A DNA stretch of 64,000 bases from a virus: IMG/VR virus record IMGVR_UViG_3300042503_000724, positions 1-64,000 of that record; one strand, written 5' to 3'. This document shows, one piece after another, positions 3,561 to 25,581 of the stretch. The translations under genes were made by a program, and so were the position numbers. How positions within the stretch are numbered: the stretch's first letter is position 1; every line of letters begins with the position of its first letter. The notes under the pieces are model-generated. The model searched no databases and had not been told where the DNA came from. It saw only the letters and a list, made by a program, of their open reading frames with translations.

Positions 3561-3814
3561 TTTATACTCCTTGGTGGATCGCCCTTGGCTCCATCAAAGT
3601 AGCATTTTACACCAAAGGATTCTATTAGCTTTCTAACCATTTGTAAATATTCCATAAAAGTTTCCATCTGCGGAGCATTCATAGACATAATTTGATTTTC
3701 ATAAATACGAATAGAAATATACTGATCAAACTCTACAAAATCCACAACAAGTTTTGGGTATGGTGGCTTAATTTGATGAACTGCAACGGACATTTCTTTT
3801 GTAAATTTAGCCAT
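3557..3814 (-). CDS. 85-aa protein of unknown function
   Basis: The start MAKFTKEMSVAVHQIKPPYP is chosen because its ATG overlaps the whiB stop (ATGGCTAA). The protein looks like alternating strands (LVVDFVEFDQYISIRIYENQ) followed by a helix (METFMEYLQMVRKLIESFGV). It may be a small binding protein; no family recognised. Confidence 0.7.
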   Translation of the reverse strand: MAKFTKEMSVAVHQIKPPYPKLVVDFVEFDQYISIRIYENQIMSMNAPQMETFMEYLQMVRKLIESFGVKCYFDGAKGDPPRSIK

Positions 3815-4091
3815 CTGACACCGCATCTAAAATCATAGACCATACCTCTTTTGTTTTATGCATATTTTTAGAGGGACTTGGCTCTCCATCTACTAAGTAT
3901 ACACCACCCCAAACTCCCCATTCTGAGTTTGTTGTTCCGTGATTAAAACACTCTGCTATAACAGGACACTGCAAACAAATAGTTTCATCAACTGTTTTTG
4001 CAAGTATTGGATCTTCTTCATACTTATCAAAAAACATTTCACGGTCAATGGCACGACACTTAGCCTTCATCATCCATTCTTCATCTAACAT
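3807..4091 (-). CDS. whiB: WhiB-family iron-sulfur transcription factor
   Basis: WhiB-like proteins bind a [4Fe-4S] cluster through four cysteines and interact with the principal sigma factor of Actinobacteria. All four are present with family spacing: C12 in AKCRAID, then C39, C42 and C48 in ICLQCPVIAEC. The diagnostic turn GVWGG follows at 59-63. The ATG at 4091 is chosen because it overlaps the upstream stop and gives the usual compact length (94 aa); a longer in-frame N-terminus would run into the upstream gene. Actinophage WhiB proteins are known to redirect host transcription and affect superinfection, so a similar role is inferred. This gene is the best single host indicator in the window. 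Confidence 0.93.
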   Translation of the reverse strand: MLDEEWMMKAKCRAIDREMFFDKYEEDPILAKTVDETICLQCPVIAECFNHGTTNSEWGVWGGVYLVDGEPSPSKNMHKTKEVWSMILDAVSDG

Positions 4092-4290
4092 ACTTTGCTG
4101 GCACTTCCCAACCATTTTCATTTGGCTCGTAGGTTTTATAGAATCCCCATTTGCCATCCCTTAGCAAACCGCCCTTTGACATTTCTCCAAGAGAGTCTGC
4201 CTTCCAGTCTACAATAGTCCAGCCATCCCAGTAAAGACCCTTGTTTTTTTCTACTATAGCGTGTGCTTCTTCGTAACCAATTATTGGCAT
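4081..4290 (-). CDS. 69-aa protein of unknown function
   Basis: Starts MPIIGYEEAHAIVEKNKGLY and is rich in Trp, Gly and Lys (YWDGWTIVDWKAD, KWGFYKTYEPNENGWEVP). It looks like a small beta-rich domain. It overlaps the whiB start by 11 nt, so the two are probably translated together. No family recognised. Confidence 0.75.
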   Translation of the reverse strand: MPIIGYEEAHAIVEKNKGLYWDGWTIVDWKADSLGEMSKGGLLRDGKWGFYKTYEPNENGWEVPAKYVR

Positions 4291-4684: not shown

Positions 4685-5587
4685 CTAATTAACTAGATCA
4701 ACAATAAACATTTTTCCTGAACGCTTGTGTTCAAGGTATCTTGACTGGGACTTAATTCTATCATATACTTGAGACATTGACAACCCAGGGCTTAGTTCTT
4801 TTACTGCTACCCATTTTGCTGCCATAAGTGCACTGGAGTTTGATGTTCCAACAGAGTTTGCTGTTTTATTATTTGGTGCTGCTGCAAACATTGTTCCTAA
4901 TGCAAAAAAGTCAGTGCTGGCTGAGTTGTTGCTATATAGTGCTGGAGACATTTGCTTTCCATATGCTGGGTCTGTGGCACCAACAGAAATTGATGATGCA
5001 ATACATGCAGGAAAGTCTATCTTAGAATAATTATATCCATTTCCTGTTGGGAAAAATGATGGAATATTCTTTGATGCAAGAGAGTTGATTGCATTTTCAA
5101 TAGGCACATGCTTTGTGCAAGCATCTCTTGAAACATATGACTGACTCATATTTACCGCAACAATGTTATAAGTTTGGTGATTCTTGTCTACCCACTCTAG
5201 TGCTCTTTGCACAGCAGTCAGTGACGTACTTGCCCTAAGTCCATTTGCCGTCATTGGAATAATTCTAATAATAACAAGATTAACATTTGGATTGTTTTGA
5301 GTAATTACTGAAGCAATTTGTGTACCGTGATAAAAACCATTTCTACTAGCTCTTGCTGGATCTAAAGTTGCTGCTCCAACACCTTCCATAAAATTAGTTT
5401 TATTTGGACAAGTGTTAAAGTCAAGTACACATACTTCGTGTACAATTTTTCCAGATACTGAACTATGCGTAGCGTCAATTCCTGTATCAATTACGGCAAT
5501 GGTGGGCTTGGTGTTACCCTTTGCTGAAGTTCCTGTAATAACCAAAAGCAATGCTATTCCAATAATAGCAATAATACTTTTCTTCAT
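4685..5587 (-). CDS. secreted subtilisin-like serine protease (S8 family)
   Basis: A 300-aa subtilase with an N-terminal signal peptide (MKKSIIAIIGIALLLVITGT). The catalytic triad is complete: D34 in IAVIDTGID, H87 in YHGTQIASVI and S249 in GTSNSSALMAA. The oxyanion-hole Asn is N183 in PTGNGYN. There is no obvious long propeptide between signal and catalytic domain. Four cysteines (C53, C60, C157, C195) could form disulfides, fitting export. The gene has its own perfect promoter at 5617-5645 and an AAGGAAA ribosome-binding site, unlike its operon-embedded neighbours. Phage-encoded secreted subtilases are unusual; it may process host surface proteins or exclude other phages, which is inference. 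Confidence 0.92.
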   Translation of the reverse strand: MKKSIIAIIGIALLLVITGTSAKGNTKPTIAVIDTGIDATHSSVSGKIVHEVCVLDFNTCPNKTNFMEGVGAATLDPARASRNGFYHGTQIASVITQNNPNVNLVIIRIIPMTANGLRASTSLTAVQRALEWVDKNHQTYNIVAVNMSQSYVSRDACTKHVPIENAINSLASKNIPSFFPTGNGYNYSKIDFPACIASSISVGATDPAYGKQMSPALYSNNSASTDFFALGTMFAAAPNNKTANSVGTSNSSALMAAKWVAVKELSPGLSMSQVYDRIKSQSRYLEHKRSGKMFIVDLVN

Positions 5588-8806: not shown

Positions 8807-9558
8807 TATTTTTTATCCTTTTCAAGTTCCTGTTTTATAAAATCAAATCTTATTTTTGCTAACTCTGTTTGATCTTCTGAAACATCTATGCTTATGGCTT
8901 TTCTATTTAAAAGGTAGGCTTCACAAGCAGTTGTTCCGCTACCGCCAAATGGATCTAAGACAATATCTTTTGGCTTAGAAAACATTTCAATAAGTTTTTT
9001 TGGAATTTCTGATCTAAAAGAATTTTCAACAAAACCAAGGGGTTCTAATTTTTTTGTAATTTTATTAGAATTATCTTTTGCTGGGATGTTCCAAATGGCT
9101 TCAGAATACTTTCTTACAGAGTATGGGTTGCTATACATAAGTCCTGGGCTTTTTATAAAATGATATATTAAATGATAATTAAAGTTTACTATACCAAGAT
9201 TATTTTCTTTTACATTTTCTGACCAATTCCATATAAACGGTGGATTTGCTAAAAACAAATTCGTTTTTTTTAAAACACTTGAAACGTATTCTGAGTATAA
9301 CGGCTCTGTATTAGAAATGCAAACAAAAATAGATCCTGTTGGCTTTAAAACTCGTTCCATTTCTTTTGTTGCAGATAGCAAAGAGCTAATATATTTTTTT
9401 GTATTTTTTTCAGAACCTATTTGTTTGGTTGGATCTCCACCGTAGTAATCAAAATCTAATTGATAAAAGGGGGCTTGAGTAACAATTAGATCTACAGAAT
9501 TATTTTCTAAATTAATTTTTTTAGAATCTGATGTAATAAAATTTACAGTGCTGTTCAT
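8806..9558 (-). CDS. beta-class-like DNA methyltransferase with atypical motif IV
   Basis: This 250-aa protein has the permuted order of beta-class N4/N6 amino-methyltransferases. Motif IV is at residues 27-32 and the AdoMet-binding motif I (LDPFGGSGTT) is near the C-terminus, followed by AISIDVSEDQTELAK. Motif IV reads TQAPFY where most relatives have (D/S/N)PP(Y/W). The first proline is therefore replaced, which could alter base flipping or substrate. No restriction endonuclease is adjacent. It is co-translated with DUF6065-like and glycosyltransferase genes, so a role in modifying phage DNA or another substrate is open. Confidence 0.82.
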   Translation of the reverse strand: MNSTVNFITSDSKKINLENNSVDLIVTQAPFYQLDFDYYGGDPTKQIGSEKNTKKYISSLLSATKEMERVLKPTGSIFVCISNTEPLYSEYVSSVLKKTNLFLANPPFIWNWSENVKENNLGIVNFNYHLIYHFIKSPGLMYSNPYSVRKYSEAIWNIPAKDNSNKITKKLEPLGFVENSFRSEIPKKLIEMFSKPKDIVLDPFGGSGTTACEAYLLNRKAISIDVSEDQTELAKIRFDFIKQELEKDKK

Positions 9559-10217
9559 TATCTAAATTCCTTTTTGGTCCACCAGTTTCTTTTGTATTGA
9601 CCAAATGGAGGATTAAAAATTTTATAAAAATCTTTTGGTTCAACATAGTCTTCATTGTCAATAACTTTACTTTCCCATTTATCTCTTTTAAATGGAATAA
9701 CCTGAATAATTGGAGTTCCTGCTGGAATTACCCCCTCAAATTCTTTTTTAATTAAGAATGGAAAATTTACTGTAACTGGGTGTTTGTCTGTATCAACAAT
9801 TCCAGAAAAAGAATAAAATGGAGAATCTCCCGAATTTAAAGGATGAACGAATAGGCAGCTATATCCTTTTGGTGTTTTAATGTTCCAAGGATTTACCCAC
9901 TTATAGGGCTGTGAATCAAATTCTTCTGGGGCTGGATAGGCTTCCGTTTGTAAAGGATAGTGCTCTGAAACAAAAGTAATGTCATTTCTTTGACCAAATT
10001 TTTTTACCTCCCTTGCTTTGTAAACATCTGAAGGTAAGGTTATAATATAACCTGCAGTTAAAGAATCTAATATGGGGACACATTTTTTCATTGTGTGCAT
10101 TTGTTCTTTTACAACAGAATCTTTTCTCCACCAATTTGGAACAGCCTTACTTGCTGGAACTGGATGTGGTATATCAAATTGTGGAAAGACGCTGGTAAAT
10201 GTAATCTTATTTGTCAT
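9558..10217 (-). CDS. DUF6065-like phage protein, copy A
   Basis: A 219-aa protein with PHPVPASKAVPNWW near the start, CVPILDSLTAGYIITLP, IKTPKGYSCLFVHP, GIVDTDKHPVTVNFPFLI and GTPIIQVIPFKRDKWE. The same landmarks in the same order occur in the protein at 10653-11342 and, more distantly, in the one at 24850-25581. I associate the family with DUF6065 from memory; its biochemical role is not established. The repeated motifs look like a beta-sandwich, with a final strand ending in P-x-K-R. Confidence 0.75.
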   Translation of the reverse strand: MTNKITFTSVFPQFDIPHPVPASKAVPNWWRKDSVVKEQMHTMKKCVPILDSLTAGYIITLPSDVYKAREVKKFGQRNDITFVSEHYPLQTEAYPAPEEFDSQPYKWVNPWNIKTPKGYSCLFVHPLNSGDSPFYSFSGIVDTDKHPVTVNFPFLIKKEFEGVIPAGTPIIQVIPFKRDKWESKVIDNEDYVEPKDFYKIFNPPFGQYKRNWWTKKEFR

Positions 10218-10218
10218 T

Positions 10219-10653
10219 TTATTTATTATCCTTTAAGCTAGTAATTACTGTTGATCCGCCAGAAATGCAAATTTCGCATTCTCCACAAGCATTTTCTATT
10301 AATCCAAAGCAAACTTCTCCTTCTCTAACCATTTTTGATGGGTTAAAAAATCTTCCATCTATGTATTTCCAACCAACAGCAGGAACATCTCCTGGATCTA
10401 AATTTTGACCAATTTCTTCAAAGGAAGGATTTGATAAAAATAAAGATGCCAAACCAGACTGAGCTCTAATAATTTCTTGAACCTCTTTGTCTAAAACAAT
10501 AGCAATGGTTACTATTTTTTCTCCAAAAGGTTCTGGTGGAGCTAAATTATATAGAAGTGACTGCTTATTTTCAAATCTTTTTCTTTTTGAAAACCATGCC
10601 TTAATAATATCTAGGGTGCTAAGAATAACTACCCCATCTTTGTGCTTAGCCAT
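10219..10653 (-). CDS. 144-aa protein with a VGWxY tail motif and Cys cluster
   Basis: The start MAKHKDGVVILSTLDIIKAW is chosen because its ATG overlaps the upstream stop as TAATG. Near residue 100 it has DPGDVPAVGWKYIDGRFFNP, a motif often seen at the ends of phage tail-associated proteins and also present in the neighbour at 11358. The C-terminus carries CFGLIENACGECEICISGG, a possible metal site (C-x8-C-x2-C-x2-C). It sits between two DUF6065-like copies. Function unknown. Confidence 0.7.
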   Translation of the reverse strand: MAKHKDGVVILSTLDIIKAWFSKRKRFENKQSLLYNLAPPEPFGEKIVTIAIVLDKEVQEIIRAQSGLASLFLSNPSFEEIGQNLDPGDVPAVGWKYIDGRFFNPSKMVREGEVCFGLIENACGECEICISGGSTVITSLKDNK

Positions 10654-11342
10654 TAACTGTATTCCTTTCTTACCCAAGATCTTTTTTTATAGTATGCTTT
10701 TTCACCAGTAATTTTTATATTTTGTTTCGCAACTAGGTCGTAGTTTTCAGGACTATTTATGGACTTCCAGTGTTTTCTTTTTATTGGAATAATTTGTGCA
10801 TATGGAGTTCCTTCTGGAATAACTCCATAAAAACCTTCTTTTAAAAAGAATGGAACGTTTCCATTAACTGAAATTTTATCAGAGTCCATAAAGCCAGACA
10901 TTGTTGTAAATGGTAAATCAAACCTATTATAAGGATGTGTAACAATTGTACTATACCCTCTCGGTGTTTTCCATCCCCATCTATTTGTCCAAACAAAATG
11001 ACTATCTAGATGACCTGCAGGTCTTGGAATTGTTTTTCCAGATTCATATGGTCTTTGGTTTATAAAATCTTGCCATGGACCTGGAGAGTTCCATTCAATG
11101 CTTAAAGACCCATCTTCTTTTTTACCAACAAATATATCAAAGGGTGTTACAAGAAGATATCCAGCAGTTAAAACGTCTAAGAAAGGAATGCATGTTTTTA
11201 AGCCAGCACTTGCCTCACTTCCATGTGTAGTAACATAAAATGTTTCTCCATCTTTGTACCATTGTGGAATCATTTTTTTTGCAGGTACTGGTATGTTTAA
11301 TGGATAGGTTTTATCCGAACATGTAAATTTTATTAATTTCAT
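10653..11342 (-). CDS. DUF6065-like phage protein, copy B
   Basis: A 229-aa paralogue of the protein at 9558-10217: NIPVPAKKMIPQWYKDG, TCIPFLDVLTAGYLLVTP, WKTPRGYSTIVTHPYNR, GFMDSDKISVNGNVPFFLK and GTPYAQIIPIKRKHWK align block by block. The two copies flank a 144-aa gene, which suggests duplication followed by divergence. An adenine-rich leader precedes the ATG. Function unknown. Confidence 0.75.
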   Translation of the reverse strand: MKLIKFTCSDKTYPLNIPVPAKKMIPQWYKDGETFYVTTHGSEASAGLKTCIPFLDVLTAGYLLVTPFDIFVGKKEDGSLSIEWNSPGPWQDFINQRPYESGKTIPRPAGHLDSHFVWTNRWGWKTPRGYSTIVTHPYNRFDLPFTTMSGFMDSDKISVNGNVPFFLKEGFYGVIPEGTPYAQIIPIKRKHWKSINSPENYDLVAKQNIKITGEKAYYKKRSWVRKEYS

Positions 11343-11357
11343 TATTATATAATCTTT

Positions 11358-11618
11358 CTAGTAGTAAAAAGTATCGGTGTCTGGGTCGTAAGTTGGTCTA
11401 GAAAAAGTTTTTGTTTCTGGGTTGTACCTCCATCCAACCTTTGTTTCTCCCTCTTTTACTCTAAGGTAAGTCGGCTGAGACAAATATTGTGCTGCAGACT
11501 GACCGTCTACGTTAAGCACTTGATAAACAACATTGTCAATCATCATTGCGATATCAAATGGCAACCGTTCTGGTTCTGGAAATGGTCTAACCACTTTAGG
11601 TAGTTCTTTTTCTGACAT
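11358..11618 (-). CDS. 86-aa protein with VGWRYNPETKTF motif
   Basis: Begins MSEKELPKVVRPFPEPERLP, then a short globular part (MIDNVVYQVLNVDGQSAAQY) and ends KVGWRYNPETKTFSRPTYDP. The VGW-Y-F-P signature is common at the C-terminus of small phage tail or fibre-associated proteins. It directly follows the fibre block, so a virion or assembly role is likely but inferred. Confidence 0.65.
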   Translation of the reverse strand: MSEKELPKVVRPFPEPERLPFDIAMMIDNVVYQVLNVDGQSAAQYLSQPTYLRVKEGETKVGWRYNPETKTFSRPTYDPDTDTFYY

Positions 11619-11629
11619 AATTTTATCCT

Positions 11630-12967
11630 TTAAATCTTTTCAATTGTAATTTCATCTATTTCATATCCTTGACTTGTTGGGGACGGTTCTACAATTATAC
11701 CATATGTAGAGGTTAGAGCAACACCACTTGGGGTGTATACCAAGTCACTTCCAATTTTTGAAGTAAGATCTGCATTTGCATATGGCTCAATTGTTATTTC
11801 AGAACCACTTGTAGTTATTCTCATGGAGTTAACTATTGATGTTCCAAGGCTAGATACCACCCACTTGGTTAGCTCTGTAACAGTTCCTGCAACAGACTTT
11901 ATGACTCTGATATATGATGGAAAACAGGTTTGACAGTTGCAACTAATATTGTTAAAGGACTCACAGCTCCAAGCAGTACAGGTATATGCTGCACAGTTGT
12001 AGCTTCCAGAACAAAAGCCTCCAGTACAAGCACTCCATACACCAGTTGGTGTAGCTGGATTATTTCCAGTAAAAACGTTATATGGTGTGTTTCCAGTAAA
12101 TGCATTGACGTTGCCTGGATTAAATATTTGATTGTTTCCGCCTCGTGTGTTGTAAGATGCAATACTTGAGGCTCTACAAAATCTATTTCCTGTTCTATCA
12201 CAGGCACTCCATCCAGAGCAAGGACGCACAAAGTTTTGTGTGTTCCAGGATATACAGTTTCTTGGAACGGGGTTTCTTCTCCATGCCCTACAGTTGTTTC
12301 CTGGCAGAGCAACAGGAGGATCTGGAATTGTACAGTTTTGTGGATTACAATTTCCAGTATTCCAAGCATTACAGTTATAGTTATTTGCATTTCCTCCAGT
12401 ATTAAATGAATTATATACTCCAGTTGGTGAAGGTGCGTTTGTGTTGCCTCCACCAGTTGCTGCATTGTATCCTCCAAAAGCAAAGTTTGGATTTCCTGGG
12501 GTAGCACTTGTATATTGAGCTGTATTACATGGTCCATTAATACAGTTTCCAGGGGTACTACAAAATCCAGTAGTGCAAGGAGTATTTACGGGCAGTGTGG
12601 CACATTCTGTACAAGTATCACATTGACAATTTTCTCCATTATCAATTCCTGTTGTAACAGCCCACCAATCACCAGTGTCTGAAATCCAAAGGGCTGCACC
12701 TGATCCAGGGGTAGTCCCCTTTAACGTAATAACTACATCTTGATCAAGTGGAGAATCTGGCATTGTAATAGAAGCAATTGGATATGTGCTAACAGAAGAA
12801 GTTGTTTTAGCTTTATTTCCAAAAATAGTAAATACTCCACGAAGAGCTGTCCATTTACTACCATCTGTTGCCTCTCCAAGTTCTCCTGCATCAGATCTAT
12901 TAAAATTATCTACGAATACATTACGGACTGCTGATGCAATTGTTGATAAATTTTTAAACAGGAACAT
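11630..12967 (-). CDS. virion protein with an inserted Cys/Asn/Trp-rich region
   Basis: The 445-aa protein begins with a lectin-like start typical of actinophage minor tail proteins (FVDNFNRSDAGELGEATDGS followed by W and a strand pattern). The same fold seems to resume after residue 350 (SYIRVIKSVAGTVTELTKWV, then SGSEITIEPYANADLTSKIG). Between them, residues about 113-349 form a low-complexity insert with 24 cysteines, abundant Asn/Gly/Pro and W-x-x-C pairs (CSGWSACDR, GVWSACTGGFC, CTAWSCESF). No other gene in the window has this composition. It may be a disulfide- or metal-stabilised adhesin loop exposed on the fibre; this is inference. Confidence 0.75.
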   Translation of the reverse strand: MFLFKNLSTIASAVRNVFVDNFNRSDAGELGEATDGSKWTALRGVFTIFGNKAKTTSSVSTYPIASITMPDSPLDQDVVITLKGTTPGSGAALWISDTGDWWAVTTGIDNGENCQCDTCTECATLPVNTPCTTGFCSTPGNCINGPCNTAQYTSATPGNPNFAFGGYNAATGGGNTNAPSPTGVYNSFNTGGNANNYNCNAWNTGNCNPQNCTIPDPPVALPGNNCRAWRRNPVPRNCISWNTQNFVRPCSGWSACDRTGNRFCRASSIASYNTRGGNNQIFNPGNVNAFTGNTPYNVFTGNNPATPTGVWSACTGGFCSGSYNCAAYTCTAWSCESFNNISCNCQTCFPSYIRVIKSVAGTVTELTKWVVSSLGTSIVNSMRITTSGSEITIEPYANADLTSKIGSDLVYTPSGVALTSTYGIIVEPSPTSQGYEIDEITIEKI

Positions 12968-12970
12968 AGT

Positions 12971-13648
12971 TTATACCGTCAAATCTCCAATTAAAGCCCA
13001 GGTATTAGTAGCTCTTTTAACTAAACTTGCAGCAGACCATTGTGCTCTTAGTTTGGCTCCAGGAGTAGCGTTTACAGTCACACCTGCTGCTCCAGAGATA
13101 GTTGTCTGACCAGCACCTGTTTGAAGCACTGAAATCTGAGTGCCTATTGGAAAGGCGTGGGACGAATTTAAGGGGATTTCAAGAGTGTTGCCTACTCCAG
13201 TAGTAGTATTCATCTCAATCATCTTACCGTCATCTGCCAAAACTAACGTATATTTGTAGGAATTGCCAGAATTTAAAGTTGGAGTATTTGTATCAATATG
13301 TGAGACAACATTTCCAGCAGAATATACTGTTCCAGTAAAAGATGGAGCATTTAAAAGTGCATAGTTGCTTAGTGTAATTGTTGCCCATGAAGCAGTAGTT
13401 CCATCAGTTGTTAGATATTTTCCTGAATTTGAAGACTGTGATGGTAAAGCATCTAGGGTAGCCCACTCAATTGTAGTTCCAGCAGAATTAACTTTAAGTA
13501 CTTGGTTTGGTTGTCCAAGCAATCCGTCAACAAGAGTTTCACCAAAAACATTAACGTCATCTAGTACAGTTACATCATTATTAGCCAGTAAAGAATCTAC
13601 TGTTAATGGCTCAGTAGAGTAAAGGTGGTTTAGTTTATTAAGTCCCAC
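12971..13648 (-). CDS. tail-fibre-associated structural protein
   Basis: A 225-aa protein with fibre-like segments: NQVLKVNSAGTTIEWATLDA, SGKYLTTDGTTASWATITLS and PSFTGTVYSAGNV. Its C-terminal domain (GAAGVTVNATPGAKLRAQWS, then LVKRATNTWALIGDL) is common at the end of phage fibre proteins. The SGKYLTTDG...SWA block matches SGYYLTNNGLTVEWK in the gene at 45885-46259, which occupies the same relative position in the second copy of the structural cassette. Confidence 0.78.
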   Translation of the reverse strand: MGLNKLNHLYSTEPLTVDSLLANNDVTVLDDVNVFGETLVDGLLGQPNQVLKVNSAGTTIEWATLDALPSQSSNSGKYLTTDGTTASWATITLSNYALLNAPSFTGTVYSAGNVVSHIDTNTPTLNSGNSYKYTLVLADDGKMIEMNTTTGVGNTLEIPLNSSHAFPIGTQISVLQTGAGQTTISGAAGVTVNATPGAKLRAQWSAASLVKRATNTWALIGDLTV

Positions 13649-13660
13649 GTTTTCCTCCTA

Positions 13661-16597
13661 CTATGCTTGGGCTTCGGTCCAAGAAAGCCTTCCGTTAACT
13701 GTAGCAGTTGTTACACCAGAACCAGAAAGGTTTCTAATTGCTATTGTTACAATGTCTGGTCCATCTGGGAAAACGTTAAGTTCTGTAGTAGATGCGGTAT
13801 TTGTTGTACCACCACCAAGAATTGAGTTTCCTAAATCTCTAACCAAACCAAGATCTTGCTGAACAACACTTGCTTCACCAGACTGAGTAGATACAAAGAA
13901 GGAGAAGATTGGTTCTCCACCAACTAGGGTTGTATTTACTGCGTGATAACAAACTTGAGACAAACTTGATCCACCAACATTTTCCCAAGTGTTTCCAGTT
14001 GCAGTATTAAATCTTGGATTCAAAATAAGTTCTACTAGGAATGCTCCTGGGTTTCCAGCAGTTCCTGCAACTAAGCTTAAAACGTCCATTTGTCTTAGTC
14101 GTAGCTGCATTCTGTTAATAAGCTCTCTTTCTCCAAAAACTCCAACAACTCCGTTGTCTACAGATGGAGCAAGTCTTAGGCTAAGAAGAGCAGATCTTGT
14201 TGATGAGCTTCTTGGAACAACAACACCAGACTTCATACCTGCTTGGAATACGAATGACTTATCATCATCGTATCCACCATCCATAATTACAGATGATCCC
14301 CAGTGACTTGTTCCAGTAGCATACTGTCTAGAGTATAGATCTACTCTTACAGGTGCTGTTGCAGAATATGTAAACGATTGTGCCGTTCCATTTCCACCAC
14401 CAGTGGCACCAGAAACTGGGTTAATGACTACGTTGCTTAGGGCTCTTGTTAGACCTGTAAAGGTTGTAGCAGTTTTTCCTGTGTAAGAAACATACTCAAT
14501 TTCTTGTGCAGTATTTCCAGCCTTTGTAATTGCAAGAGTTCCAGCTGATGGGAATCCTACAGTACTTGCAACTGACATACTAGTAGCAACATTTGAAAGC
14601 GTTGCTGAAAGTTTTGTAACTGGTGCATCTGCTGCTGCCTCATAGCGAGAAGGAAGGTTTCCAGAACGCATATAGGCTTCTGTCTTAACATTTGCGTGTG
14701 TCATTCTATGGCAATAAACAACCTCTCCACGCTCATCCTTAAATCCAAATCTAATTGCACCTGCACCATACCAAGCATAGTCAAGGTAGAACATCTGCAT
14801 CTTAGCTAAATCAACTGTCACACCTGATGGACCAGTTCCATCTAACTTATCAATGTTCCAATCAGACTGTGCAACCTTGGTGTCAACAATCTTGCTTACG
14901 ATTCCACCAGAGGCAATGGTCTGACCACGGTATTCTGGGAACACATAAAGCTCAGTATTACTTGTAATAGACTGAACTTGATAGGTTGCACCTCTAATAG
15001 AGATTCTATCTCCTGGGTTTAACTGTTCAGAGAATCTGGTATCAGTTCCTGTAATAGTTGGAGACCCTTGTGTTGCTGCAACTATACCAGAAATTTGATC
15101 TGTACTAGAACGTCTTACTGCATATAAAGTTTGTCCATCAAATTCAAAGAAGAATCCGTTTTGTTCATCAAACATACCGATTCTAGTCTGACCACCGAAC
15201 CACGATACTGGTGCGACTGTAATTGGGAATCCAGTTGCTGGAGTTGCAGATGGAACTGAGGATGCTGTGTACTGGAATTCTTTAGGTCCAGTAATTGCTG
15301 TAACTGTAAAGGTTCCATTGTATGCTGTTTGATCTGCACCACTTACTGTAACCTGTGCACCAATTCCAAGGAAATGTTCGTATCTAGTTTTTACCGTAAC
15401 GGTTGTGCTAGATGAAGAAATTAAATCAACTGCGAATACTGGCTTCATCATAGATCCAGTTGAGAACTGAATGCCCTTACCTGACTGGTATCTAAAATAT
15501 CTTCTTGTCTGTCTTATAATTTTTGATCCAGGAGCAGAAGAACCAGTTGTAAACTTCACTCCACCATCAAATGGTCTGTGTACAGATAGTGTTCCTGGTC
15601 TACCAGTTAAGGACTTCGCAACAGCAGTGATTGCACCAGATGGGGCATCAATTACATCGAAAGTGAACGTATTTGTTGTTGGAGTTGTCTTTACTTCCCA
15701 AGCACCATTTGGTGGGTTAGAAGAAGCTGCTGTGGTACCAGAAACATAAATCAAATCTCCGATGCTAAGACCATGAGCATTTGTAGTTGTTGCTGTTACT
15801 GTTGTGCTAGAAGCTGTAAATGCAGCACCAGATGAGGTGCTAAGTGGGATCTCTGATCCTGTGTAATTGTAAGCCTTGTATGCAAATGTCTTTGTTGCAT
15901 CACGAACGCTTCCGTTAGTAACATTTGCTCTTGCATAGTAGGTAAAAGTATCATTAGAAACTGTTGTTGTGGAAACGCTTCTTACTAGATACCAACCGTC
16001 TGCATTAACATCCAAGGTATCCTGAATGAAGAACTTATCTCCAACAGAAAGACCGTGGGCTGCAGTAGTTACTACTGTTACAAGTCTAGAAGATCCAGTT
16101 CCTGTAATTGAAACAAAAGTGTTTGTTCCTCCAGAAGGCTGTGCAATTGGTGTTTGAATATCATAAAAGGCTGAAGGCTTGTTGTTTGTAAGACTTAATA
16201 CTTCCCATTTAGTAGGCTGAGTTCCGTATTCAAAATCGGTATCAATTAAAGAAGTAGGTTCGGAAACTCTAAACTTTCCAACAGGATCCATGTATGCTTC
16301 ATCTGGTTGGAAGCTTTCAGCATACTCATCAACTGTGATTTGAAGTTTATCTGTAGCAGACATTGCTGCTGTGTTGTAATTAAGAACAACAGTTGTTGTG
16401 GCTACGTTGTTTGAGTCAATGGCTGGGGTATAGCTTGTTGCTTTAAGACTAGGGTCAGAGAAGTTGTAGATGACTTGGTTAGTAGTTACGTTTGTAATTA
16501 AAACCAGTCTCTCCCTTGGAATGTGATCTGGGATTACAATCGTTCGTGTTGACGGAGTGAATGTATAATTCGTCTCGTGAAGTACTTTTCTAGCCAT
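13661..16597 (-). CDS. large virion structural protein, paralogue 1
   Basis: A 978-aa protein starting MARKVLHETNYTFTPSTRTI, with LITNVTTNQVIYNFSDPSLK near residue 35. It contains repeated beta-domain phrases (TVTTAAHGLSVGDKFFI, TTTNAHGLSIGDLIYVSG, TVSGADQTAYNGTFTV), then DGTGPSGVTVDLAKMQMFYL, HWGSSVIMDGGYDDDKSF, RLAPSVDNGV and a C-terminal RLSWTEAQA. The same blocks in the same order occur in the 1212-aa protein at 46269-49907. These look like baseplate or fibre-network proteins. It is followed immediately by the 1333-aa fibre gene upstream, again as in the other locus. Confidence 0.85.
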   Translation of the reverse strand: MARKVLHETNYTFTPSTRTIVIPDHIPRERLVLITNVTTNQVIYNFSDPSLKATSYTPAIDSNNVATTTVVLNYNTAAMSATDKLQITVDEYAESFQPDEAYMDPVGKFRVSEPTSLIDTDFEYGTQPTKWEVLSLTNNKPSAFYDIQTPIAQPSGGTNTFVSITGTGSSRLVTVVTTAAHGLSVGDKFFIQDTLDVNADGWYLVRSVSTTTVSNDTFTYYARANVTNGSVRDATKTFAYKAYNYTGSEIPLSTSSGAAFTASSTTVTATTTNAHGLSIGDLIYVSGTTAASSNPPNGAWEVKTTPTTNTFTFDVIDAPSGAITAVAKSLTGRPGTLSVHRPFDGGVKFTTGSSAPGSKIIRQTRRYFRYQSGKGIQFSTGSMMKPVFAVDLISSSSTTVTVKTRYEHFLGIGAQVTVSGADQTAYNGTFTVTAITGPKEFQYTASSVPSATPATGFPITVAPVSWFGGQTRIGMFDEQNGFFFEFDGQTLYAVRRSSTDQISGIVAATQGSPTITGTDTRFSEQLNPGDRISIRGATYQVQSITSNTELYVFPEYRGQTIASGGIVSKIVDTKVAQSDWNIDKLDGTGPSGVTVDLAKMQMFYLDYAWYGAGAIRFGFKDERGEVVYCHRMTHANVKTEAYMRSGNLPSRYEAAADAPVTKLSATLSNVATSMSVASTVGFPSAGTLAITKAGNTAQEIEYVSYTGKTATTFTGLTRALSNVVINPVSGATGGGNGTAQSFTYSATAPVRVDLYSRQYATGTSHWGSSVIMDGGYDDDKSFVFQAGMKSGVVVPRSSSTRSALLSLRLAPSVDNGVVGVFGERELINRMQLRLRQMDVLSLVAGTAGNPGAFLVELILNPRFNTATGNTWENVGGSSLSQVCYHAVNTTLVGGEPIFSFFVSTQSGEASVVQQDLGLVRDLGNSILGGGTTNTASTTELNVFPDGPDIVTIAIRNLSGSGVTTATVNGRLSWTEAQA

Positions 16598-16600
16598 TGT

Positions 16601-19600
16601 TTATGCTCCTAATAATATATCCACTGCTTTGAATGGATACCCTTTCTTTATTGAATTTACGTTTGGTCCAAGCATTAACCTGGCATCAAATGTTGATCCT
16701 ACTGGTGGTACTTCAGAAAATGCGATGTAGCCATCTGAGTCTACCATAAAGCCTTCTCTTGGTAGCATAGATTGCCAGACATATTCTGGAAAGTCCACTG
16801 TTTGAATTATACCATTTATTGTTAACAAAAGTCTAAGTGGGTTGTTAATTGCTACTTGTTGTCCTTGGAATTTTGGAACAAATCTAGAATCCATATCGTT
16901 AAACTCATACCTCAAGTCATCCAGTGGAATAATGTCTGGAAGGTATGGCAAACTGGCAAAAATTAAATCGTCCACATATTCTTTATTTGCTGCATCTGTA
17001 TCATCTGTAGGAGATGGCACTGTAACATGACCAGTAAATACTGGATCGTTTGTTCTGGCTATTTCAACATCAATAAAGTCTTTATCAATTGGGGTTGCTG
17101 CCCAGGTTCCTGTTGTAACGTATCCAAGAGTACTAATATTATTTGGCACACCAGAGTACTGTGCAAAAATTATATTATCTGTTCCAATTTTTATTGCACC
17201 ACTTGGAGTCGTAGAAGTTCCACCCTGAGAAACAACATAAGAATCATTTGCAGAGTTGGTACCTGAAGTAACAAAAACGTAATCTCCATTTTTAATTAGT
17301 CCATTTGTTGAAGTATTTCCATTAAAATTTGTAGCCCTTGTAAGAATAAACGGATCGTCACCGTCACCAGCAAATGTTACAACATAAATACCATTATGCT
17401 TTGCGTCAGTCTGATCTTTAATAAGAACTCTTTGACCAGCCTCTACCTCTGGTCCATCAAGTATCAATGCTCCATCTACATTTCCAGTAAGGGTTGCTCC
17501 AACTCCAAGACCGCCAGAAGAATCGCTAGTTCCAGCTGCATATGTTGCATTTAGATTTGTTTGGGAAACATAGACCACCTGAGGTTTAACATTAATTCCA
17601 GCAGCCAATGCGTCAACATAGCTTTTAGTTGTAGCATGACCAGAACTTGTTGGAGTTGGCACAGTAACAGTTCCAACAAAATTTGTAGAAGGATAAACAG
17701 AAACTGTTCCAGTTGCTCCACTTGTTGAAGAACCAATGTTAATATTTGTTTCTGAACCTGATGCCCCACCAGTTCCAATGTTGATTGTTTTTGTAGTTGT
17801 AGTAGCATTTCCAAATAAAGTTGCAGTAACTGATCCTGTTGGAGTGCCTCCAATTGTAAATGTTGTTGCTGCACCTGCAAGGTTAACAGTAGTTGCGGTT
17901 GTATTAAATAAGTCTAAAGATGTGCTTGTTGTGACTATTGCAGGAGTTCTAATTGTAGTGCTTGCACCAGCATCAGTAGATCCCATAATTAATGTTGTTG
18001 CTGCCCCAGCAAAATTAACTGTTGTTGCAGTAGCATTTATTAAATTAAAGGTACTTGTTCCAGATATTAAGGATGTGCTAATTGTTGGGGAAGAACCAGT
18101 TATATAAGAATTTGTGTCAATAGACCAGCTGTCTGGTCCAAGTCTTTTTAATAGACCAACTCCAGAAGTTATTGCTGCAATTGCACTAAGATCTCCGTCA
18201 ACTGGTTGATATCCAGACAAAGAAGATGATAGTGCATATGTACTTGAGTCATAGGACCATGTTCCTGCTGTATTTTTTAGAAGACCAGTGCCAGAACCAA
18301 GAGTATTAATTCCTGCAAGATGTGAACTGTAAGCTTGAACGTCTGTTCCAATTACAAGACCTAAAGATGTTCTTCCAGAGGATGCATCAAGACCTGAAGA
18401 TCCACCGTCCCATTTATTTCTATCAGTATATGCGGTGTCCCAATTAGAAGAATTATTAGTTACTGTAGTGTATGTTGAATCTGTTCCACGAACAACAATT
18501 CCAGTTGTTGACAATGCAGAAATATTTGTAAGGTCTAAATCTTTTGGTTGGTAGTCTGATATGGCATCAGCCTTGGTTAAATATGTAGCTTCTGCTGTTG
18601 CTGTTGAGAGCAAGTTACCAAGTTGTGTTTGTATAGAAGATGTTACTCCATCTAGGTATCCTATTTCTGTAGATGTAACATTTCCAATACTTGTTGTTGA
18701 TGGAAGAATTACTATGCCAGTAAATGTTGGACCAGATAATGTAGCATATGCTGTTAGGTCTAACTGTGTGCTTGGAACTTTTCCTGATGGATCATCAAGT
18801 GTCGCTACGCCACCTGCAATACCTTTTGCACTCATAGGAATGTAGCCAGTTGAAGTGTTGCTTATGTCAGAAACTCTTGCAATTGTATCTGGTATAACTG
18901 CATCTGAAATTTCTCCGCCAGTAAGTGTTGGCTTTGAGTCTAGCTGAGTTTGTATAGCAGAGGTTACGCCATTTAAATATCCAACTTCTGTAGCACTTAC
19001 GTCACCAATTGATGTTGTGGATGGCAAGACAACTATCCCAGTAAATGTTGGTGCATCTAAAGGTGCAAAACTTGTTGCAACAAACTCTGTTGTTGCAATT
19101 CTAGTACTATTGTTTCCAGCTGTAGCAGTTGTTGCTAAGGGTAAGCCAGTAAACTCTGGACTTTCTAGTGGTGCATAGCTAGAAAGACTTGAATTTAAAG
19201 CGTAAGAATTTGTGTCTATGCTAAATGCATCTTCACCAGTTCTTTTTACAAATCCAGTACCAATAATTTCTGTAATTGAAGTAAGTCCTGGATTATATTC
19301 TTGTACATCTAGACCAATGCTACCAGAAGTAAGAAGATCTGCTTCTGCTGCAGTTTGATTTTTCCATTGAGAGGTTGCACTATCATATGCAAGAACTTCA
19401 TTGTCTGCTATAGTTCCACTAATTGTTACATCTGTAAGACTGCTTATATCTGTGACTGCAGAAACCGTTTCATTTATCCACTTTGAAGTTGTGGTATCCC
19501 AAACAAGTGCTTGTCCATCTGTTGGGGTTCCAGTAATTACAACATTTGAAAGACTGTCAACTGTATGGTTGTGTGATGTAGAAGACTTGCTATCAATTTG

Positions 19601-20602
19601 TGTTTGAATGGCGGAAGTTACACCGTCAAGATATCCTATTTCAGTGTCAGTAACTCCAGATACAACTGTTTGAAGCCCTGCTTCTGCTGCTGTTTGATTT
19701 TTCCAAAGACCACTTGCACTATCATAGGAGAGGATTTCATTATCTGCTATTGACGCATTAGCTTCAAGAAGTACATCATGAATTTCTTTTAACTCAAAAC
19801 CATTTTGTACCTTAACAAAAATCTCACCAGTGTTTGCATTTTTTCTAGTAACAACACCAATAAAAACTAAATGTGCAGGAGCAACAGGCTTGTTTGTAAG
19901 ACCATAAATTAAATTACCATCTGTACCAAGCCATACTGGATCACCCTCTGCACCTGCGGTAGATGTGTCAAGACCTGCTAGAAGACCTTCTGTTACAACT
20001 TTAACCAATGCATTGTTTGCTCCGCCAGATTCTAAAAGACCAATAGTCTTACTAGATGTTGCTTCGGATGCGTTAGAAGCTTTTGAAACAACCATGTTTG
20101 TTCCATTAGAAGAACTTACATATACTGCTTGACCTTTTGCAATAGCACCATTTAATCTAACATCATGTTTTAAAACTGCGGTATAGTCTGCAGATGGAGC
20201 ATTTATTACATCAATATGTAATTCATTAGATGCGTCTTCATATGTTACAGAAGCATTGGTGTGGTTTGCGTGGGTAAATAGTGGGGCTACAAAGTCTTGT
20301 ACCTGCTCTTGTGAAAGGCTTACAACACCGTTTACTTCTACCCAATAAGTACCATCATAAATATAGAACTCACCAGTATCATTCTTATACCAGGCATCTC
20401 CAGTTGCTGGACTTGATGGGGCAGTGGTTGAAACATTAATGTCTGATCCGCCATCATTACCAACGGGAACCCAAGCACCATTGGCATATACTTTTACTGC
20501 ATCAGATGTGGTATTGTAATAAATGTCACCTTCAACTGGTGAGGATGGGTCTGAAGCTAAATTGACCAAATTAATAGGGTTTAAAAACTTTTTACTAGCC
20601 AT
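16601..20602 (-). CDS. 1333-aa tail fibre with GYLDGVTS repeats
   Basis: A long fibre protein. Near the N-terminus are trimeric-fibre-like blocks (PVEGDIYYNTTSDAVKVYA, ATGDAWYKNDTGEFYIYDG). The shaft carries repeats of (E)IGYLDGVTSxIQTQ separated by variable loops, and TTATTVNLAGAATTFTIGG-type collagen-free beta repeats. The C-terminal domain (about residues 1225-1333: LTINGIIQTVDFPEYVWQS, GFMVDSDGYIAFSEVPPVGS, YPFKAVDILLGA) is shared with the 1300-aa protein at 49919. It is preceded by an extended -10 motif 9 nt before the ATG. Likely host recognition. Confidence 0.88.
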   Translation of the reverse strand: MASKKFLNPINLVNLASDPSSPVEGDIYYNTTSDAVKVYANGAWVPVGNDGGSDINVSTTAPSSPATGDAWYKNDTGEFYIYDGTYWVEVNGVVSLSQEQVQDFVAPLFTHANHTNASVTYEDASNELHIDVINAPSADYTAVLKHDVRLNGAIAKGQAVYVSSSNGTNMVVSKASNASEATSSKTIGLLESGGANNALVKVVTEGLLAGLDTSTAGAEGDPVWLGTDGNLIYGLTNKPVAPAHLVFIGVVTRKNANTGEIFVKVQNGFELKEIHDVLLEANASIADNEILSYDSASGLWKNQTAAEAGLQTVVSGVTDTEIGYLDGVTSAIQTQIDSKSSTSHNHTVDSLSNVVITGTPTDGQALVWDTTTSKWINETVSAVTDISSLTDVTISGTIADNEVLAYDSATSQWKNQTAAEADLLTSGSIGLDVQEYNPGLTSITEIIGTGFVKRTGEDAFSIDTNSYALNSSLSSYAPLESPEFTGLPLATTATAGNNSTRIATTEFVATSFAPLDAPTFTGIVVLPSTTSIGDVSATEVGYLNGVTSAIQTQLDSKPTLTGGEISDAVIPDTIARVSDISNTSTGYIPMSAKGIAGGVATLDDPSGKVPSTQLDLTAYATLSGPTFTGIVILPSTTSIGNVTSTEIGYLDGVTSSIQTQLGNLLSTATAEATYLTKADAISDYQPKDLDLTNISALSTTGIVVRGTDSTYTTVTNNSSNWDTAYTDRNKWDGGSSGLDASSGRTSLGLVIGTDVQAYSSHLAGINTLGSGTGLLKNTAGTWSYDSSTYALSSSLSGYQPVDGDLSAIAAITSGVGLLKRLGPDSWSIDTNSYITGSSPTISTSLISGTSTFNLINATATTVNFAGAATTLIMGSTDAGASTTIRTPAIVTTSTSLDLFNTTATTVNLAGAATTFTIGGTPTGSVTATLFGNATTTTKTINIGTGGASGSETNINIGSSTSGATGTVSVYPSTNFVGTVTVPTPTSSGHATTKSYVDALAAGINVKPQVVYVSQTNLNATYAAGTSDSSGGLGVGATLTGNVDGALILDGPEVEAGQRVLIKDQTDAKHNGIYVVTFAGDGDDPFILTRATNFNGNTSTNGLIKNGDYVFVTSGTNSANDSYVVSQGGTSTTPSGAIKIGTDNIIFAQYSGVPNNISTLGYVTTGTWAATPIDKDFIDVEIARTNDPVFTGHVTVPSPTDDTDAANKEYVDDLIFASLPYLPDIIPLDDLRYEFNDMDSRFVPKFQGQQVAINNPLRLLLTINGIIQTVDFPEYVWQSMLPREGFMVDSDGYIAFSEVPPVGSTFDARLMLGPNVNSIKKGYPFKAVDILLGA

Positions 20603-20611
20603 AGTAGTTTA

Positions 20612-20620
20612 ATTATATCA
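20612..20620 (-). promoter_or_regulatory. extended -10 promoter close to the fibre gene start
   Basis: Minus-strand TGATATAAT, 9 nt upstream of the ATG at 20602. There is no convincing -35. The short distance means the transcript would have almost no leader. The 55-nt gap after the upstream gene holds nothing else. Confidence 0.55.
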
Positions 20621-20657
20621 TTTATGTAGGTTTAAGTATAGGATGTTCTACAAGCCA

Positions 20658-22373
20658 TTATAGTTCTGCTTCTGATGCCCAATGAAAAGATATTCCATTT
20701 GCGTTAGCACCAGAAGAACTAAGTGCTCTAAACGAGTTTTCTCCTGAACCATCAAGACTTCCAGTAACGCTTTGCTGGCTAGAGCCATAAGTTTCTCTTG
20801 TAACTTTTCCAGAAGCACCAGTCATGGTATCCCAAATAGATAAAGTTGGGCTTGACTTTCTTTTTGATACTTTATACGGAACAGATGTAACTATGTATCC
20901 AGTGGTAGGTGCAGCAGACCCACTAAAAAATGCTCCTACGATGGTACTTGTTCCAAGAGCAGTTCCTAAATCGTAAGACTTCTCATAGTACCTTTGGCAC
21001 AATGCTAGTTCTGTACCAATAGGACGTTGTTCAAACGGGGTGGCTATAGAACCCTTTTCAACTTGCACACCCCACACATCAAATGTAAAGGTTGCATTTA
21101 TTGGTAAAGAAAAGAATATGTGTAGCGATGAATCTGGATTAGTTCCTAATGTTTTTCCAGATAAAGACGGAACGGTAACTGTGTAAGTAAACTTAGTCCA
21201 AGAAGTTGTAACCGCTACGCTTGTAGCAACTGTTGTGTACTGAAAAGAAGATGGTGAACCACCAGAGCCATAAGCTTGACCAATTAAAATTCCAGGAATT
21301 GTAGTGTTAGCAGATGTTTTAGCCCAGAATGAAATTACAATATTCTGTCCAGCAAAAGTACGGACGTCTTCAATTTTCTGGAGTAAATAGTTATACGTTG
21401 CTCCAGAGCCAGCAACAGACTGATTGTATCTTAAAAAGTATTTTGGTTCGTATTCTGAAATTGCTCCTGCTCCAGGGGTAAAAGATTGCTGAGTGATAAG
21501 GCGAGTTGAGCCAGAACCATCTAGCCAAGTTAACCATCTATCTGCGTTGTAACCACCATTACTTGGAGTAATTGATGTGCCTCGTTGCCAGATATCCATA
21601 CCACCATTGATAATGGCATTGCGGAAACCACTGATAGGTGTAGTAGTCATGTTTGGGTACTCTGACAGATCAGCAGAAGTTAAATAGGTGTTAGTGTCTA
21701 GTGACCAGGATATCATTCCCATTCCATAGTTTGCAAACTTAACTATTCCACTTTGAATAGTAATATTTCCAAATGTACTAGAGAGTGTTGATAAAGCACC
21801 ATTAAGTGGCTGATATGTAGAACTTGCTGTAGATATATCTAATTTATTTCCAAGAGCAGTTGTGATGGTGGATGCATAGTTTGCATCATCTCCAAGTGCT
21901 GCTGCAAGTTCATTAAGAGTATTTAATGTTGAGGGTGCAGCATCAATTAAATTGGTTATTGCTGTTCCAACATATGTTTCTGTTGCGTATCCAGAAATAG
22001 ATGCACCTGCAGGAATTGTAACCGTACCAGTAAATGTGGGGGAGGCTAGTGGAGATTTTGTACCCAACTGTGTTTGAATAGCACTAGTTACGCCATCAAG
22101 GTACCCAATTTCAGTGTCTGTTACGTTGGTTACTATTGGCTGGTATGTGGTTGCTGCGGTAGATGAAGAAAGCTTTGTACCTAACTGAGTCTGAATAGAT
22201 GATGTAACGCCATCTAAATATCCTAGTTCAGTATCTGAAACATTTGAAACTCTTGGCTGGTAGTCAGCAGTTAGATCAATTCCAATAATTTCCCAAGATG
22301 TACCATTATAACGATATCCCTGATATTCATCATTAACTTGTGGAGCAGGAGAGGTTGGAAAGATAGTTGCCAT
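20658..22373 (-). CDS. 571-aa tail fibre with carbohydrate-binding-like C-terminus
   Basis: The N-terminal third has two GYLDGVTSxIQTQLGTK repeats of the same family as in the 1333-aa fibre. The second half begins FRNAIINGGMDIWQRGTSIT, then NADRWLTWLDG and a jelly-roll-like domain (ENSFRALSSSGANANGISFH). The IINGxMDIWQRG and ADRW phrases are widespread in phage receptor-binding proteins and prophage fibres. It is therefore a candidate receptor-binding protein. Confidence 0.85.
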   Translation of the reverse strand: MATIFPTSPAPQVNDEYQGYRYNGTSWEIIGIDLTADYQPRVSNVSDTELGYLDGVTSSIQTQLGTKLSSSTAATTYQPIVTNVTDTEIGYLDGVTSAIQTQLGTKSPLASPTFTGTVTIPAGASISGYATETYVGTAITNLIDAAPSTLNTLNELAAALGDDANYASTITTALGNKLDISTASSTYQPLNGALSTLSSTFGNITIQSGIVKFANYGMGMISWSLDTNTYLTSADLSEYPNMTTTPISGFRNAIINGGMDIWQRGTSITPSNGGYNADRWLTWLDGSGSTRLITQQSFTPGAGAISEYEPKYFLRYNQSVAGSGATYNYLLQKIEDVRTFAGQNIVISFWAKTSANTTIPGILIGQAYGSGGSPSSFQYTTVATSVAVTTSWTKFTYTVTVPSLSGKTLGTNPDSSLHIFFSLPINATFTFDVWGVQVEKGSIATPFEQRPIGTELALCQRYYEKSYDLGTALGTSTIVGAFFSGSAAPTTGYIVTSVPYKVSKRKSSPTLSIWDTMTGASGKVTRETYGSSQQSVTGSLDGSGENSFRALSSSGANANGISFHWASEAEL

Positions 22374-24849: not shown

Positions 24850-25581
24850 TTAATATTTAAATTCTTTAATCTTACTTGTCTTTAAATGATTATCAACTTC
24901 ATGTTTTTTAACTGGACTTTCTGCTCTTCCATAATGACCATCTATTTCTGTTATACCTGCTTGTTGAGATGTTCTATGATTTGCATACATGTCGTATTCT
25001 TTTTTAAATTCTGGATAGTCTTCAATTCCTGAAACTAAAGTATTAAACTGCTCAACGTATCCTCTTTCTACTGGGAAAAAACTAAACAATGGCTGATCTT
25101 TTTCAAATTTAATTTTTCCTGGTTTAATAAACTTAAAGTTATAAGTAAATGTAAATGGTAACCAGTCTGTTTCTACAACACCGTCAAGTGGCTGTATTCC
25201 ATTTGCAATTAAGTTTGGAATACCACGAACATATGTAGAAACTCCTGGACTTGTTTTAATAATAAAGTCTGGAATCAAACTTAATATTCCATGACCAAAA
25301 TTAGTTGCAGTCATTTTAAAGTCTTCATTGCTACTTTCTGGAGGATTTATTACTGTTACTGAAAGGTCTGACCCCAAAGGTCCACCGTTCCATTCTGCTG
25401 TAAAATCCATTGGACATAAAACATACCACCCATAGGTATTTCCAACATTTAATGGGGTACAACGATAAGCATTGTTGTGTGTTTCATCCATCCATGTTCT
25501 TTTTACTTTTGGATTTACTACTTTAAAAAGCTTGTTTTCTTTGTCAAAGTATCTTAACTCAATTGTTTTTTCGGAATCCAT
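24850..25581 (-). CDS. DUF6065-like protein, distant copy C
   Basis: A 243-aa protein with YGWYVLCPMDFTAEWNGGPL, NFGHGILSLIPDFIIKTSPG, VRGIPNLIANGIQPLDGVVE-TDW and KFEKDQPLFSFFPVERGYVE. I recall this composition as DUF6065. It follows the same motif order as the copies at 9558 and 10653 (pG-x-x-hh...TP-G...G-h-x-[DT]D...G-x-P-h-x-x-h-P-x-x-R), so the three are probably remote homologues. It is transcribed from its own TTGACA/TAAGAT promoter, with 7 nt between -10 and ATG. Function unknown. Confidence 0.8.
   Translation of the reverse strand: MDSEKTIELRYFDKENKLFKVVNPKVKRTWMDETHNNAYRCTPLNVGNTYGWYVLCPMDFTAEWNGGPLGSDLSVTVINPPESSNEDFKMTATNFGHGILSLIPDFIIKTSPGVSTYVRGIPNLIANGIQPLDGVVETDWLPFTFTYNFKFIKPGKIKFEKDQPLFSFFPVERGYVEQFNTLVSGIEDYPEFKKEYDMYANHRTSQQAGITEIDGHYGRAESPVKKHEVDNHLKTSKIKEFKY

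Follow-up and report, generated by a model that had tools for sequence, protein, structure and literature searches.

A family of putative phage tail-fibre adhesins with a hypervariable, cysteine-rich loop in viruses of probable lake actinobacteria

Results

Here, we analysed a stretch of 64,000 nucleotides (hereafter 'the window'), which comprises positions 1 to 64,000 of the IMG/VR virus record IMGVR_UViG_3300042503_000724. The 445-aa protein at the centre of this study is encoded in a tail-fibre module: its gene lies directly downstream of a series of co-oriented fibre genes (Table 1), and the order of fibre genes, adhesin gene, gene of the 86-aa protein and phrog_7084 genes is kept in many unrelated contigs. 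The 978-aa fibre protein shares at most 46% identity with cyanophage fibre proteins, and the C-terminal domain of the adjacent 225-aa protein is common to the fibre gene beside the adhesin in many relatives. The window also holds a clear DUF6065 member at 24850-25581 and a Peptidase_S8 (subtilase-family) protein at 4685-5587 on the minus strand, the latter among glycosyltransferase and epimerase genes.

A gene for a WhiB-like protein was detected in the window and in all 11 adhesin-bearing virus records tested; among 14 control genomes, only that of Corynebacterium had one. Its presence in every tested record suggests that the hosts are probably Actinomycetota, and the virus analysed here probably infects lake actinobacteria. 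Actinomycetia phage DSL-LC01, also from a lake, carries a related fibre gene together with a WhiB gene, and the proteins encoded downstream of its fibre gene differ.

Table 1 Features of the adhesin locus and its surroundings in the window.
Feature	Position	Strand	Evidence
Tail fibre protein, 571 aa	20658..22373	-	phrog_4492, E = 2e-70
Fibre/structural protein, 1333 aa	16601..20602	-	Weak PHROG virion-structural matches
Fibre protein, 978 aa, related to cyanophage virion structural proteins	13661..16597	-	phrog_5838, E = 2e-279; 176 phage records
Fibre protein, 225 aa	12971..13648	-	PHROG minor tail / virion structural matches; synteny
Whole gene of the putative fibre-tip adhesin, 445 aa	11630..12967	-	Intact ORF, kept in contigs L001-L005
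Short hydrophobic N-terminus, proposed fibre-docking peptide, residues 1-18	12914..12967	-	Putative docking role
Scaffold N-half, residues 19-105 (FxDNFNR ... NWWAV)	12653..12913	-	Seed profile match in relatives
Cysteine-rich hypervariable insert, residues 113-349, 24 Cys	11921..12631	-
Putative 5' cysteine clamp of the loop, CQCDTC, residues 114-119	12611..12628	-	CxCxxC clusters in relatives
Cys-free, Asn/Gly-rich, indel-prone stretch 1, residues 148-198	12374..12526	-	Alignment of window and L001-L005
Cys-free, Asn/Gly-rich, indel-prone stretch 2, residues 265-313	12029..12175	-	Alignment of window and L001-L005
Putative 3' cysteine clamp of the loop, CNCQTC, residues 343-348	11924..11941	-	Invariant in alignment A1 except for one Q/S position
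Scaffold C-half, residues 351-445	11633..11917	-	Seed profile match in relatives
86-aa protein directly downstream of the adhesin, co-conserved	11358..11618	-	Similar ORF at many relatives' loci
phrog_7084 protein, 229 aa, paralogue of the 219-aa protein, co-conserved downstream	10653..11342	-
phrog_7084 / weakly DUF6065-like protein, 219 aa, co-conserved downstream	9558..10217	-
WhiB-like protein	3807-4157	-	Pfam, E = 1.6e-12

An earlier note on this DNA had described a 24-cysteine insert in the 445-aa protein, and both count and coordinates proved exact: all 24 cysteines fall within the 237 residues of the insert, none within the remaining 208. Measured against the mean cysteine content of the window's ORFs (0.69%, n = 39), the binomial probability of such an insert is ~1e-20, which excludes chance as a cause of its cysteine density. 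Its most frequent other residues are Asn (42), Thr (28), Gly (25), Ala (20) and Pro (20). Repeated W-x-x-C or W-x-C units, a further feature mentioned in the note, do occur, but just three times, and are thus weaker than claimed. The arrangement C-x-x-[W/Y/F], on the other hand, exceeds chance in the window protein (7 seen versus 2.6 expected from shuffles, p = 0.006) and is likewise enriched in five relatives (p < 0.0005, shuffles). A frameshift artefact was rejected, as contigs L001-L005 (66-100% identity) carry an uninterrupted ORF with all 24 cysteines retained, and these align across the window and the five contigs despite indels. Of 106 relatives among the matches listed, 17 have CxCxxC clusters close to both insert ends and a further 9 close to one end.

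Searches of Pfam, NCBIfam, PHROGs, PDB sequences and 50,697 phage records returned marginal or weak matches at best for the 445-aa protein. Employing tblastn with six family members or the scaffold consensus (low-complexity filter on), no named relative was found among sequenced phages; bacterial genomes gave a single weak match (L125, 34% over 97 residues), and a sequence search of solved structures gave chance-level matches only. The regions flanking the insert had been called lectin-like; no match in Pfam, NCBIfam or PDB assigned the scaffold to the concanavalin A-like / laminin G group. The insert-free scaffold weakly matched the virion structural protein family phrog_23819 (E = 0.0076), which we regard as a lead only.

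Relatives were found in IMG/VR, whose contigs are fragments of uncultured viruses: 9 loci at first, and many more with widened alignments (from one scan, 80 of 170 relatives were taken into the set). We defined the family by the presence of both scaffold halves, in order, detected with two profiles covering the regions before and after the insert, and by this definition it has at least 106 distinct members. Among the matches listed, the insert ranges from 67 to 492 residues and its composition is entirely different from one relative to another. Contigs L001-L005 carry inserts of the Asn/Thr/Gly type seen in the window protein. Inserts rich in Tyr, Ser, Gly and Cys occupy the same insertion point in L006-L009 and keep the ending CNCQTCFP, and further relatives have inserts rich in Ser/Cys/Trp, Thr/Ser or Tyr/Thr. 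The long inserts of L041 and L046 (201 and 137 residues, respectively) contain no cysteine at all. In L062-L066, the insertion site is a 15-residue turn, and cysteine-rich modules are instead found after the scaffold, between poly-proline rods. These insert-free forms show that the flanking halves make up a single domain with an optional insert. The proposal that the insert splits a single domain was thus borne out by natural relatives, and the metagenome search suggested in the earlier note did recover homologues lacking the insert. The note had named as refutation a cysteine region that is a general fold of the family. An insert, mostly a cysteine-rich one, occupies this site in nearly all members, but two have long cysteine-free inserts and one group has no insert. 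Judged from sequence, the region is no peculiarity of a single protein and no invariant fold either. The N-terminus of the relatives is also of more than one type (short and hydrophobic in 69 of 106, with KVGGxW-type repeats in 29 of 106, among the matches listed), which suggests exchangeable docking elements.

Several relatives show additional features. L006-L009, and only these, have a second insertion in the scaffold N-half (residues ~75-160), a repeat-like domain with SVGSTFVFSASGTISTVT.... Contig IMGVR_UViG_3300032236_000862 encodes two scaffold paralogues, L009 with a 24-cysteine insert and L041 with its Tyr-rich, cysteine-free one. Even-cysteine modules separated by poly-proline rods are seen in the insert-free relative at 3971-6060 of L062, and also in L063, L064 and L066. 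From position 3197 of L113 onwards, an adjoining fibre-like protein combines PTPT rods with a C-terminal part that contains 10 cysteines, which may be a further use of these cysteine-rich modules.

Comparison of close relatives revealed how unevenly the protein varies. In the pair L104/L118, scaffolds are 99% identical and inserts 53-54%, and in the pair L087/L101 the values are 99% and 53%. At DNA level, identity in such pairs is 93-100% outside the insert, drops sharply to ~50% within it and recovers immediately afterwards; no other region shows such a drop. Within the clade of the window protein, dN/dS is 0.29-0.46 for the insert versus 0.09-0.22 for its flanks. These values indicate that the insert is translated and constrained, and, being below 1, that it is relaxed or exchanged, not provably under diversifying selection. 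Between L004 and the window, the fibre-shaft proteins are 97-99% identical and the adhesins 69%. Downstream of the L004 adhesin, the genes show roughly the same divergence as the adhesin's scaffold; exchange in this virus may therefore have involved the entire distal module and not the loop alone. A diversity-generating retroelement was rejected on present evidence: there was no reverse transcriptase in the 11 records examined, which may be incomplete, and no adenine bias of the insert changes was seen. Taken at the level of sequence, the insert is a hypervariable cassette, and exchange by recombination together with indels is the likely route of its change.

The number of cysteines in the insert turned out to be even throughout. 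Among the matches listed, this applies to 102 of 102 cysteine-containing inserts, with counts ranging from 4 to 64. The first set comprised 33 clusters at 45% insert identity, all even; evenness was then set as a prediction, and two more scans added 37 members, again without exception. Counted by cluster, 56 of 56 are even at 45% insert identity and 39 of 39 at 35%, although the clusters are not fully independent (just 11 at 30% identity, where low complexity joins unrelated inserts). As a control, we used the other ORFs of the same loci with two or more cysteines; 25 of 63 families had members with odd counts, and the mean even fraction was 0.72, a bias to even numbers for which the following P value allows. 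At this base rate, the probability of 39 even clusters out of 39 is ~3e-6. The modules between the poly-proline rods of L062-L066 are each even as well (2, 18, 12, 6, 6). Cysteine makes up 9.9% of insert residues compared to 3 in 17,097 scaffold residues; one extra cysteine is found in the scaffold of L113. The simplest explanation of the even counts would be complete pairing of the cysteines inside the loop, with selection against a free thiol.

Discussion

We consider it likely that the 445-aa protein is a receptor-binding adhesin at the tail-fibre tip of an actinobacterial phage, which displays a disulfide-knit hypervariable loop oxidised after lysis. The short N-terminal element would dock the adhesin onto the fibre, and the conserved scaffold, probably a beta-sandwich, would carry the long loop at a hairpin turn. 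The cysteines of the loop may pair with one another (as 12 disulfides in the case of the window protein), and the CxCxxC clusters, one per end, may clamp its base to give a rigid knob. As covalent links and not a buried core would hold the shape of the knob, the residues between the cysteines would be free to change, expand, shrink or be swapped, which in turn would allow the phage to track changing surface receptors of its host. Made in reduced form in the cytoplasm, the chain would become oxidised once the cell has lysed. A phage-encoded thiol redox enzyme was rejected: in 11 records, neither a thiol oxidase nor a glutaredoxin scoring above the cut-off was seen, and the scanned ORFs of the window gave no thioredoxin-like Pfam match. 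Oxidation must then be spontaneous or host-made. Altogether, the interpretation given in the earlier note is partly supported, while its suggestion that the insert mimics a host adhesin found no support.

Might the insert serve the virion in another way? It could be a rigid, disulfide-rich element that acts as a spacer or stabilises the fibre tip without binding a receptor itself, and structural disulfides do have a precedent in virions, namely Agrobacterium phage Milano (PMC10811340). The long cysteine-free inserts of L041 and L046 raise the thought that length may matter more than cysteines. For a spacer, however, there would be no need to vary more than the rest of its module, and inserts differ by ~46% where scaffolds are 99% identical; we thus regard a mere spacer as rather unlikely.

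The earlier note had also considered metal binding. A zinc or iron-sulfur loop, in which cysteines coordinate a metal in the cytoplasm, would agree with the dense CxC and CxxC spacing and with the fact that thiolates are favoured in a reducing compartment. Yet counts that are multiples of four are not preferred over others (54:48), some inserts have just 4 or 6 cysteines, the spacing is variable with no repeated Cys4 pattern, and His amounts to only 0.3% of insert residues. Even counts with no preference for multiples of four are more readily explained by disulfide pairing than by Cys4 metal sites; the cysteines of the insert probably form disulfides, and a mainly metal-binding role is improbable.

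It is very improbable, in our view, that the protein binds an extracellular target other than a host receptor, such as polysaccharide or particles, or crosslinks virions by intermolecular disulfides. Loops rich in Tyr, Ser, Thr, Asn and Gly are frequent in sticky proteins, and the composition of the inserts would suit such a role, and location of the protein on the virion is no more than presumed; the strictly even number of cysteines per protein and per module, however, points to pairing within the chain and not to free thiols for crosslinking. That the inserts are low-complexity expansions by slippage, with cysteines as neutral by-products of codon composition, is hardly credible: they are repetitive and indels are common, but it is the cysteines that are conserved (all 24 align), the inserts are under purifying selection, and evenness in 102 of 102 cases, not expected of neutral cysteines, already contradicts it.

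The receptor-binding adhesin that we favour resembles known systems in several respects. T2-type gp38 is a small protein whose gene lies directly downstream of the fibre genes, as does the adhesin gene relative to the distal fibre gene here (fibre genes at 12971-22373). In phages S16 and PP01, gp38 exposes hypervariable receptor-binding loops on a constant scaffold (PMC12892980), a division into constant and hypervariable parts that is shared by the present family, and the confinement of variation to the putative tip of a conserved fibre follows the same receptor-binding pattern. In contrast to gp38, which employs a beta-helix and a poly-glycine II sandwich with glycine-rich motifs, the scaffold is a different one and is split by a single long cysteine-rich loop; it lacks the glycine-rich PGII motif repeats, and no homology to gp38 appeared in Pfam, PHROGs or phage records. 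The targets of diversity-generating retroelements are also phage tip proteins (here putative) in which a constant scaffold holds a variable segment, but in the present family whole inserts differ and not point positions. The many disulfides of phage Milano form in a virion assembled in the bacterial cytoplasm (PMC10811340); unlike those proposed here, they lie within and between subunits of the sheath, baseplate and fibre attachment, and no hypervariable loop is involved.

The nearest known design, as an analogy only and with no kinship implied, may be the ultralong CDR-H3 of bovine antibodies, in which a stalk and knob rich in Cys, Tyr, Gly and Ser form a long loop off a beta-sandwich, cysteines are biased to even numbers, and diversity arises via residues and disulfide patterns (PMC7366855; PMC5994613). 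CDR-H3 reaches ~70 residues at most and changes by somatic mutation, whereas the phage inserts extend over 67-492 residues and diversify between viral lineages. On balance, and with less assurance than for the single protein, we lean towards a large, uncharacterised family of phage adhesins of antibody-like design in viruses of lake actinobacteria: a constant scaffold would present a disulfide-knit hypervariable knob, cysteines would be acquired or lost in pairs, and disulfide patterns would add diversity of shape.

Phage receptor-binding proteins vary. A family with a variable loop of 67-492 residues and up to 64, always even, cysteines is undescribed in the open PMC literature that we searched. 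The even-cysteine rule itself is a simple sequence test for disulfides where the fold of a protein is not known. If our reading is true, these viruses would hold a large natural library of disulfide-rich binding knobs, in principle like those of cow antibodies. It would also prompt one to ask how such loops can fold when the phage is made under the reducing conditions of the cytoplasm, and would provide a handle on the recognition of abundant, hard-to-grow freshwater actinobacteria.
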